In this document: piece by piece, positions 51,889 to 55,417 of the stretch | How positions within the stretch are numbered: position 1 is the stretch's first letter | Layout: each line of letters opens with the position of its first letter | Origin: Emcibacter sp. | GTDB taxonomy: Bacteria > Pseudomonadota > Alphaproteobacteria > Sphingomonadales > Emcibacteraceae | Assembly (NCBI GenBank): GCA_021774785.1 | Contig: JAJFIQ010000026.1 | Location: 124,001 to 188,000, forward strand | Length of the DNA: 64,000 nt | Direction of reading: 5' to 3' | The notes under the pieces: model-generated | What the model was told of the DNA's origin: nothing | Seen by the model: the letters and a program-made list of their open reading frames with translations, nothing else | Databases searched by the model: none | Translations under genes and position numbers: made by a program

Positions 51889-53922
51889 ATGATTAGTGTG
51901 AAGAAGATAATATATTATACCATGGCAGTGATAGCCTTTTTATCAGCCACAACATCTGTTTATGGCGATGAAGAGGAGGGAAACCCCCATTATCACGGCC
52001 ATGAAATGGAAGAAATTTTCGCCACTGGCGCCCCTCACAGCAAAACCCGCCTTGACGTCATGCAGGGCAGCAGCCTGATCGGGCTTGATGAGCTTGAACA
52101 GCGCATGGAAGCCACCATAGGTGAAACGCTGTCTGGCATTCCTGGTATTTCATCCAGTTTTTTTGGGCCGGGGGCCAGCCGCCCGATCATTCGCGGACTG
52201 GGCGGTGACCGCATACGCATCCTGATAAACGGCATCGGCAGTATCGATGCCTCCAGCACTTCACCTGATCATTCTGTGGCCGCCGATCCCCTCACCGCAG
52301 AACGCATAGAAGTCCTGCGCGGTGCCAGCACCCTGCTTTACGGCAGCAATGCGGTCGGTGGCGTGGTCAATATCATTGATGGCCGCATTCCGAGCATTAT
52401 TCCCGATGCCCCGCTCACGGGCCGAACACGCCTTGGCTATGGCTCCGCAGCAAAGGACTATTCCGGCGGGCTGGCCTTAAATGCCCGCCTCGGCGGATCT
52501 GAAGACACGGCACTTGTGCTGCATATTGACGGTTATTTCAGAAATTCTGCCAACTACGATATTCCAGCATTCGCCAAAAGTGATATCCTGCGCGCGCAAG
52601 GGGAAGAAAGCACATTCGGGACGGTTGAAAATTCCGATGTGGACAATAAGGGCGGTACGGTCGGGTTAAGCTGGATCGGGCAAGAGGCCATATTCGGACT
52701 GTCCTTCAGCCTGAATGACAGCAATTACGGCGTGCCGGGGGATGATGATGAAGCGGTGCGTATCGCCCTTGACCAGAAACGTTTCGATGTGAAAGGCAAT
52801 CTGGCGCATGAATTCCTGATATTCGAAGAAGCCCGGCTGCGATTTGGTTACGGTGATTACGAACATAAAGAGCTGGAAGGAGCGGATATTGGAACTATTT
52901 TCGCCAATGAGGGATGGGAAGGCCGTATCGAAGTGATCCAGCGGGAAATGGGCATTCTCCATGGTTCAATGGGCATGCAAATCCGCAAACGGGATTTTGA
53001 AGCCATTGGTGATGAGGCTTTTGTCCCGCCCACAACAACCCTGCAATGGGGTATTTTTGCCGTTGAGGAGATAAGTCTCGATCCGGTGACCCTTGAATTT
53101 GGTGCCCGCTATGATCATCAGACGGTGGAAAATAAAAGTCTGGGCCAAAAACGCAGTTTCGACAATATAAGCCTTTCTGCCGGTGCTGCCATTCACCCCA
53201 CGACAAACAGCCTGATCGGTCTGTCCCTAGGTCGCACAGAAAGAGCGCCAACGGCAGAAGAGTTATTCTCTAACGGGCCGCATCTAGCCACAAGTGCCTT
53301 TGAATTGGGCAATATAAAACTGACCAAAGAAAAGGCCACTAGTCTGGAATTGACCCTGAAACAGGAAAGCGAACGTTTTACGGCCAATGTCAATGTCTAC
53401 CACACTTGGTATGATAACTTTATTTCCGAAAGTTTCACAGGTCTGCAGCAGGACGGTTTAAATGTTTTGGCGTTTCAACAGCGAGATGCTCGTTTTTACG
53501 GCGCGGAGTTGGAAAGCAGCTACCTTCTATTCACAAAAAACGATCATAATCTGTGGCTGAAGCTTTCGGGCGATATAATCCGGGCGGAATTTAATAATGA
53601 CGGTGGTAATCTACCGCGTATTCCGGCAAAATCTGCCACGGCAGGCTTTACTTATGAGGGACAATATATTGGTGCCAGTGGCAACATCAGGCTGGTGGAT
53701 GGCCAGACAAGGTTGGCCGAAAATGAACTGGAAACAAAAGCATATACCGAGATTGATCTGGATTTTTTCTGGCGTCCTTATGGCGAAGAACGGGATTTAA
53801 CCATCCGGCTTCAGGGTAAGAACCTGAGCAATGCCGAACGCAGACAACATACGTCTTTCCTGAAAGACCTGTTGCCCATGCCCGGTCGCAATATCAAATT
53901 ATCTGTAACCTACGGATTTTAA
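51889..53922 (+). CDS. znuD: ZnuD-like TonB-dependent receptor, putative zinc uptake
   Basis: This 677-residue outer-membrane receptor has a signal peptide (ending SVYG), a His/Glu-rich mature start (HYHGHEMEE), a TonB-box-like region and a plug with GETLSGIPGISSSFFGPGASR, PIIRGLGGDRIRILINGIGS and SPDHSVAADPLTAERIEVLRG. This plug signature is that of the ZnuD group, which imports zinc (and heme in some species). The barrel ends in phenylalanine (LSVTYGF). A Zur-like dyad lies just upstream. It is much shorter than the receptor at 374 and belongs to a different family. It ends overlapping the stop of the universal stress gene by 4 bases. Confidence 0.88.
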   Translation: MISVKKIIYYTMAVIAFLSATTSVYGDEEEGNPHYHGHEMEEIFATGAPHSKTRLDVMQGSSLIGLDELEQRMEATIGETLSGIPGISSSFFGPGASRPIIRGLGGDRIRILINGIGSIDASSTSPDHSVAADPLTAERIEVLRGASTLLYGSNAVGGVVNIIDGRIPSIIPDAPLTGRTRLGYGSAAKDYSGGLALNARLGGSEDTALVLHIDGYFRNSANYDIPAFAKSDILRAQGEESTFGTVENSDVDNKGGTVGLSWIGQEAIFGLSFSLNDSNYGVPGDDDEAVRIALDQKRFDVKGNLAHEFLIFEEARLRFGYGDYEHKELEGADIGTIFANEGWEGRIEVIQREMGILHGSMGMQIRKRDFEAIGDEAFVPPTTTLQWGIFAVEEISLDPVTLEFGARYDHQTVENKSLGQKRSFDNISLSAGAAIHPTTNSLIGLSLGRTERAPTAEELFSNGPHLATSAFELGNIKLTKEKATSLELTLKQESERFTANVNVYHTWYDNFISESFTGLQQDGLNVLAFQQRDARFYGAELESSYLLFTKNDHNLWLKLSGDIIRAEFNNDGGNLPRIPAKSATAGFTYEGQYIGASGNIRLVDGQTRLAENELETKAYTEIDLDFFWRPYGEERDLTIRLQGKNLSNAERRQHTSFLKDLLPMPGRNIKLSVTYGF

Positions 53923-54362
53923 GGTACCACTGTTACCGGAACCTTGGCTTTCTGTAATATGCCGTAAGCCACGCTGCCCAGTCCCAGTTTAGCCAGCAAA
54001 CCGCTGCTCTTGTGACCGATGAAGATTTGATCAACTTTATGATCATCTGCCAGCGCTGTGATAACCTCTGCCGCATGACCAACCTGAACAAAACTCTCTA
54101 TTGTGATGCCCTCAGTTTCGAGTTTTTCGCGCGCCGGCTCCATAATATCATGTTCGGCAGTTTCCAGCTGTTCCATATGCTGGCTGTGACGTACGGCCAA
54201 CTCCTCGACGGACATCACTTCAAATTCAGACCAATCAACAACATAGGTCAGCAATAGGGTGCCGCCGCCTCGTGCTTTCATTTTTTCAATGGCAAGTTCC
54301 GCGGCCCGCAGACTAAGCTCTCCACCGTCATAGCCTACAATATATTTTACCTGTTCTGACAT
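53919..54362 (-). CDS. Universal stress protein (UspA family)
   Basis: This 147-residue protein has the UspA fold with the opening YIVGYDGGELSLRAAELAIEKM and the ATP-binding end GHKSSGLLAKLGLGSVAYG, which matches the G-2x-G-9x-G(S/T) type. The start at 54362 follows AGGAGA; an in-frame upstream ATG adds 11 residues without support. The promoter region has a perfect TATAAT and a TTGA-N6-TCAA box at -41.5, so it should be switched on at low oxygen by the FNR-type protein encoded divergently. Confidence 0.92.
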   Translation of the reverse strand: MSEQVKYIVGYDGGELSLRAAELAIEKMKARGGGTLLLTYVVDWSEFEVMSVEELAVRHSQHMEQLETAEHDIMEPAREKLETEGITIESFVQVGHAAEVITALADDHKVDQIFIGHKSSGLLAKLGLGSVAYGILQKAKVPVTVVP

Positions 54363-54386
54363 TTTCTGTCTCCTGCTTTTATTACA

Positions 54387-54435
54387 TGGATACATTATAC
54401 TTTTACAGAGTGCGGAGAAATTTGACCCCTGTCAA
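54387..54435 (-). promoter_or_regulatory. FNR-dependent class II promoter of the universal stress gene
   Basis: On the minus strand TATAAT lies at 54399-54394, giving a start near 54387. The dyad TTGACAGGGGTCAA (TTGA-N6-TCAA; 54435-54422) is centred at 54428.5, which is 41.5 bp upstream, the classic position of an FNR activation site. The recognition helix of the neighbouring FNR-type protein (ETISR) matches this box type. Confidence 0.72.
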
Positions 54436-54503
54436 GTATCTATTATTGTGGAAACTCGAGTTAATCTTGGTGGGAAATTAGCAATATATTTGTATTATTT
54501 TCT

Positions 54504-54522
54504 ACGTATCCCGCAGATACGT
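54504..54522. promoter_or_regulatory. Perfect 7-bp dyad upstream of the FNR-type gene
   Basis: ACGTATC (54504-54510) and GATACGT (54516-54522) form a perfect inverted repeat with a 5-base centre. It lies in the non-coding gap about 135 bases before the FNR-type gene. It is not an FNR box. It could be an operator for another regulator or a small hairpin. Confidence 0.35.
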
Positions 54523-54655
54523 TAACTTTTTTATGTTCTTCCCGTGTATTTTTTTGATAAATCAGGTATATAACTAAAGTAATAAAAAAATATGGGTTTA
54601 ATATAACCTGCCAATAATAATGTACGTATTTATTCAGGGACTTAGTAAATTGAGC

Positions 54656-55417
54656 ATGTCACCCTATCGTTTTTCTGGTTCAAAACCAGAAACGTCTATC
54701 CGACTGGCAACAAACAATTGTCCATATAATTCCGCATGCGACGGCTGTTCGTCACGGCATATATCATTATGTAATGTTTTGGACACGGATGAATTAAAAA
54801 GCTTTTCAAAAATATCTACTGATTTTCATAAAAATGCCAAACAGGTAATCTGCTCTGAAGATGAGGACGCCGAATATATCTATAATATCAGAAGCGGTTC
54901 AGTGCGCATTTCAAAAATGTTATCTGACGGTCGGCGGCAGATAACAGGCTTTCTGTTTGCGGGTGATTTTTTTGGTCTGTCCTGCAAGGATAAATACAGC
55001 TATACCGCCGAAGCCATTACCAATGTGGAAATTTGCCGCTTCCCCCGGACAAAAATCATCGAATCTTTCCGGGAATTTCCGGCATTGGGTGAGAGGGTTT
55101 TTGACATGACCCGTACCGAACTGGATTCTACCCATGATCAAATGCTTCTTCTGGGTCGGAAAAATGCCAAGGAAAAACTTTGCACCTTCCTGCTCACCAT
55201 GTGGGAAAAATCAGGTCGCCTGAACGAGGGTAATGGGGATGAAGTGGATATTCCCATGAGCCGGTCAGACATTGCAGATTTTCTGGGACTTACCGTTGAA
55301 ACCATTAGCCGTCAGTTCACCAACCTCCATAAACTTGGCCTCATTGACCTGGACGGCGCCCATAAAGTTTTCCTAAAAGATACTGATGCACTTTCTGCCT
55401 TAGCGGAAAATGGCTGA
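54656..55417 (+). CDS. FNR-type oxygen-sensing Crp-family regulator
   Basis: This protein of 253 residues (from ATG 54656; ATG 54620 would add 12) has the layout of FNR/FnrL. The N-terminal cysteines C22, C28, C31 and C39 lie in NNCPYNSACDGCSSRHISLC, with the C-x2-C-x7-C spacing of alphaproteobacterial FnrL/FixK-type sensors. A later cysteine in VEICRFPR corresponds to the fourth ligand (C122 of E. coli FNR). A cNMP-like fold, a dimer helix and a helix-turn-helix with ETISRQF follow. A [4Fe-4S] cluster that senses oxygen is therefore likely. It is divergent from the universal stress gene, whose promoter carries a matching FNR box. No clear ribosome site was seen. Confidence 0.92.
   Translation: MSPYRFSGSKPETSIRLATNNCPYNSACDGCSSRHISLCNVLDTDELKSFSKISTDFHKNAKQVICSEDEDAEYIYNIRSGSVRISKMLSDGRRQITGFLFAGDFFGLSCKDKYSYTAEAITNVEICRFPRTKIIESFREFPALGERVFDMTRTELDSTHDQMLLLGRKNAKEKLCTFLLTMWEKSGRLNEGNGDEVDIPMSRSDIADFLGLTVETISRQFTNLHKLGLIDLDGAHKVFLKDTDALSALAENG

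Follow-up and report, generated by a model that had tools for sequence, protein, structure and literature searches.

Between a universal stress protein gene (usp) and a divergently transcribed gene for an FNR-type regulator (fnr), a 64,000-nucleotide (nt) stretch of an Emcibacter sp. genome (positions 124001-188000 of contig C19 in a 3.5-Mb, 28-contig genome; hereafter, the window) carries a TTGA-N6-TCAA box in the position of an activator site for usp. Our reading of this locus, which we consider likely, is that the regulator is an FnrL-like oxygen-sensing activator and that usp, which belongs to the core FNR regulon of Alphaproteobacteria, undergoes class II activation at low oxygen. The named relatives retrieved with the fnr protein are Emcibacter metagenome assemblies, which places the genome in Emcibacteraceae, Alphaproteobacteria. 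That usp is FNR-activated is well supported at the level of sequence, because the site is conserved among orthologues and similar boxes lie ahead of typical anaerobic genes elsewhere in the genome.

The usp promoter and its conserved box

The elements concerned, all within the window, are:
53919..54362, minus strand: usp, encoding a 147-amino acid (aa) universal stress protein (Pfam Usp PF00582, 4.5e-23); ATG at 54362, start fixed by orthologues
54387, minus strand: predicted usp transcription start (+1), by arithmetic from the TATAAT at 54399-54394
54394..54399, minus strand: usp -10 element TATAAT, read from the sequence
54422..54435, no strand assigned: FNR-type box TTGACCCCTGTCAA, centre 54428.5, at -41.5 relative to usp
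54656..55417, plus strand: fnr-type gene from its probable start (253 aa), with PF00027, PF13545 and PF00325; placed by orthologue starts and invariant cysteines

The usp -10 element is the sole perfect TATAAT in 54363-54655 when both strands are scanned. With its -7 position at 54394, calculation puts +1 at 54387 and the centre of the box, which reads TTGACAGGGGTCAA on the usp strand, at -41.5, bearing out a preliminary description of this DNA, made from its letters, in which a TTGA-N6-TCAA had been placed 41.5 bp upstream of the TATAAT-predicted usp start. A site at about -41.5 combined with a -10 element at the matching spacing is the hallmark of a class II FNR-activated promoter, the start here being a predicted one. 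As judged from the alignment, translation of usp begins at ATG 54362 (MSEQVKY...) rather than at 54395, because the orthologues align at 54362; AGGAG, a good ribosome site, lies upstream of this codon, and the leader from the predicted +1 would be about 25 nt long. The protein itself (53919-54362) has an ATP-motif region of the form GHKS-x9-GS versus the usual G-x2-G-x9-GS, and the second glycine is replaced by serine in most orthologues.

A single box match is weak evidence by itself, because the window contains four TTGA-N6-TCAA boxes against 1.97 expected, and we rejected on these numbers any significance for a lone box. A search of the family provided 17 usp orthologues of at least 69% identity, in 16 of which TTGA-N6-TCAA lies no more than 160 nt from the usp start (shuffled control: mean 0.14, maximum 2, in 300 rounds); these are related sequences and the count is not one of independent events. 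A -10-like hexamer matching at least 4/6 positions follows 21 or 22 nt past the box in 14 of the 17 orthologues, and one matching at least 5/6 in 12, a spacing that corresponds to a -40.5 or -41.5 geometry. The divergent fnr-usp pair is present in 14 genomes. Within the close group the box stays 64.5-71.5 bp from usp, while its distance to fnr ranges from 84 to 268 bp, and this near-constancy on one side and variability on the other argue that the site belongs to usp. The comparative evidence for a conserved, real usp box is thus strong, and it supports the earlier reading of an FNR-type activator site in a class II position ahead of usp.

The FnrL-like regulator and its predicted targets

The open reading frame of fnr spans 54620-55417 and opens at ATG 54620 (265-aa numbering, used below), but the true start is probably 54656, for a protein of 253 aa, because close orthologues begin at the matching residue. 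The product has the cyclic nucleotide-binding-like domain and the Crp-type helix-turn-helix by which the Crp/Fnr fold is recognized (PF00027, 3e-17; PF13545, 4.1e-16; PF00325, 9.1e-13), a fold that we regard as settled by solved relatives. The four cysteines expected of the FNR sub-family (C40, C43, C51 and C139, in the pattern CX2CX7C plus one) do not vary among the 15 homologues aligned, whose identity goes as low as 36%, and neither do E227, S230 and R231 of the E-xx-SR recognition helix for TTGA half-sites. C40, C43 and C139 align with cysteines of gammaproteobacterial FNR, and the third cysteine has the wider CX7C spacing. This invariance agrees with the preliminary description, which had taken the divergent gene to encode an FNR-type protein with the cluster cysteines and an ETISR helix. 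A cysteine test divides the alphaproteobacterial FNR group from FixK (Dufour and colleagues, PMC2908626), and by that definition the divergent gene has the sequence traits of the FNR group. No other cysteine-bearing FNR was found in the window's genome, and for that reason the divergent gene remains the best candidate there as reader of the usp box.

Beyond what is observed (the sequence, the geometry, and the conservation of box, spacing and cysteines), we infer a cluster, an oxygen response, binding and activation, and with them oxygen control of usp. At low oxygen, the four cysteines would carry a [4Fe-4S] cluster and the protein would dimerise; bound to TTGA-N6-TCAA at -41.5, the dimer would act as a class II activator, bringing in RNA polymerase and making up for the -35 element that usp lacks. 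When oxygen is present, the protein would lose the cluster and usp would no longer be activated.

A genome-wide count gives 39 occurrences of the refined motif TTGAY-N4-RTCAA and six of a reversed control. In the stretches where boxes were read, intergenic sites precede the cd1 nitrite reductase gene (nirS), norC, norQ, ccoN, hemA, ompW, coxB (which is divergent from a tldD-like gene), an SCP2-domain (UbiT-like) gene, a second usp, and genes resembling nosR, moaA and narK; here ccoN was read from a haem-copper oxidase I gene, hemA from an aminotransferase-family gene, and names with no Pfam result were assigned by inspection. Published FNR lists include ccoN, hemA, ompW, cox and usp. A -10-like hexamer stands at the same spacing from the box for hemA, the second usp and the SCP2 gene as well, though not for every target; in the second usp (G000:C11:794099-794524, L060), the FNR-type box is TTGATTTGCGTCAA and TAGAAT lies 21 nt beyond it. 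Among the other Crp/Fnr-family genes, that at G000:C19:384496-386079 (L003, L150) is a fusion, with its Crp-type domain behind a long N-terminal part resembling a nitrate-sensing (NIT) domain and with a cysteine-rich tail; it has FNR-type boxes on both sides and adjoins narK-like and moaA-like genes.

Other readers and other readings of the box

Several observations weigh against assigning the box simply to an FnrL encoded next to it. Three relatives, G008 (L181), G009 (L172) and G011 (L173), keep the usp box with no neighbouring fnr gene: usp is joined directly to the sequence found 3' of fnr in the window, fnr is cleanly missing, and TTGACAGGGGTCAA is retained, followed 22 nt later by TATTAT. 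The G011 assembly, 95% complete, yielded no cysteine-bearing FNR. The window's own genome encodes two more Crp/Fnr-family proteins with E-xx-SR helices (L002 and the fusion L003). Finally, the best-scoring model for the regulator, the NCBIfam FnrL equivalog NF045989, gives 170.2 bits, under its cut-off of 300, which is why the right name is FnrL-like FNR and not certified FnrL.

Because the box is kept in G008, G009 and G011 after the loss of fnr, the usp site is, on sequence grounds, independent of the neighbouring gene, and another FNR-type regulator may use it. G008 encodes another cysteine-bearing FNR of about 37% identity, nothing beyond apparent counterparts of L002 and the fusion is seen in G011, and no cysteine-bearing FNR was found in G009, whose assembly is 67% complete. 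We suggest, tentatively and with more doubt than confidence, that another FNR-family regulator took over the usp promoter in part of the genus, where the box with its -41.5 geometry outlived the precise loss of fnr. If true, a replacement regulator would have kept usp under anaerobic or nitrogen-oxide control in these three relatives. Having lost the neighbouring sensor gene but not its site, the three amount to a small natural experiment. Among 80 loci with a related FNR, screened for the fnr-usp pair in more distant named genomes, close usp neighbours occur only on three Emcibacteraceae-like contigs of metagenome-assembled genomes; in L088, too, boxes lie near Usp-like genes.

The same relatives bear on whether the box, as a real activator site, might have as its main reader another FNR-family protein, such as L003, the nitrate-sensing-like fusion, or L002, a regulator free of the cysteines. 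Their retention of box and spacing, the presence in G011 of no more than apparent counterparts of these two proteins, the E-xx-SR helices of both, and the recognition of similar sites by FNR, FixK and DNR (PMC2908626) would fit such a reader; yet in the window's genome no cysteine-bearing FNR besides the divergent one was found, the second such FNR of G008 could take over there, and neither the G011 nor the G009 assembly is complete. We judge this reader unlikely. That the site serves mainly fnr autoregulation rather than usp is very unlikely: it does lie between divergent genes, FnrL binds a site at fnrL in R. sphaeroides, where that gene is under negative regulation, and 50 bp separate box and fnr match in L047, where the usp -10 is far off, but the distance that is nearly fixed is the one to usp, not to fnr, and the box persists where fnr is gone. 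We give least credence of all to an incidental palindrome, in which the perfect TTGACA within TTGACAGGGGTCAA on the usp strand would be a sigma-70 -35 element served by an independent -10 close by; a weakly kept CANTCT is found 17 nt downstream in several relatives. TTGACA stands 30 nt from TATAAT, a distance too great for a -35; conservation extends to both half-sites, TCAA among them, of which a -35 would have no need; in some orthologues TTGATG replaces TTGACA and the palindrome is kept; and a promoter scan shows no usp-directed promoter using TTGACA. A plain sigma-70 promoter through this hexamer was accordingly rejected on spacing and palindrome conservation.

The region upstream of fnr also contains an inverted repeat, ACGTATC-CCGCA-GATACGT (54504-54522), followed by a T-rich stretch. 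As a second operator it is unsupported, being unique in the genome and having a core that was not found in the nine close relatives checked.

Known FNR-usp circuits and the surrounding genes

The arrangement read here as an FnrL-like activator and its usp target is of an ordinary, already known kind, and a well-supported further instance of it, because usp is already an FNR/FnrL target in R. sphaeroides, E. coli and D. shibae. The Anr protein controls the anaerobic Usp PA4352 of Pseudomonas aeruginosa. This Usp is needed to survive anaerobic energy stress (cited in PMC2908626), the regulator and usp in that case being gammaproteobacterial. In Rhodobacter sphaeroides, usp (uspA, RSP0697) lies beside fnrL (RSP0698) and has the box TTGACatggATCAA, within a region that FnrL occupies in vivo as determined by chromatin immunoprecipitation, and is activated (PMC2908626, PMC4263372). 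Shared with the Emcibacter locus are a four-cysteine FNR-type gene near usp and, ahead of the R. sphaeroides usp, a TTGAC-N4-ATCAA box. The two differ in that the R. sphaeroides usp box shares its bound region with the ccoNOQP box, whereas here ccoN is on another contig, and usp and fnr are directly divergent and flanked by a ZnuD-like receptor gene and rplU. More broadly, FNR or FnrL acts directly on usp in Escherichia coli and in two species of Rhodobacter (PMC4634722). In Dinoroseobacter shibae, FnrL carries an oxygen-labile Fe-S cluster and has three Usp genes among its direct targets (PMC5398030); the genes and their surroundings differ there, and the D. shibae case is experimental whereas ours is one of sequence. 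The description of the locus as a 'textbook' FNR circuit is therefore apt, usp being a published core alphaproteobacterial FNR target found beside fnrL in Rhodobacter. Current understanding of FNR regulation is left unchanged; what is gained is the extension of a published core target to Emcibacteraceae with clear comparative support.

The gene order around the pair is TlpA-like thioredoxin, ZnuD-like TonB receptor, usp (minus strand), fnr-type gene (plus strand), ribosomal L21/L27 and obgE, the names of the ribosomal genes and obgE having been assigned by inspection. The TonB-dependent receptor (51889-53922), which adjoins the TlpA-like thioredoxin gene, has as its best model the zinc-piracy receptor ZnuD, at 404 bits and under the cut-off.
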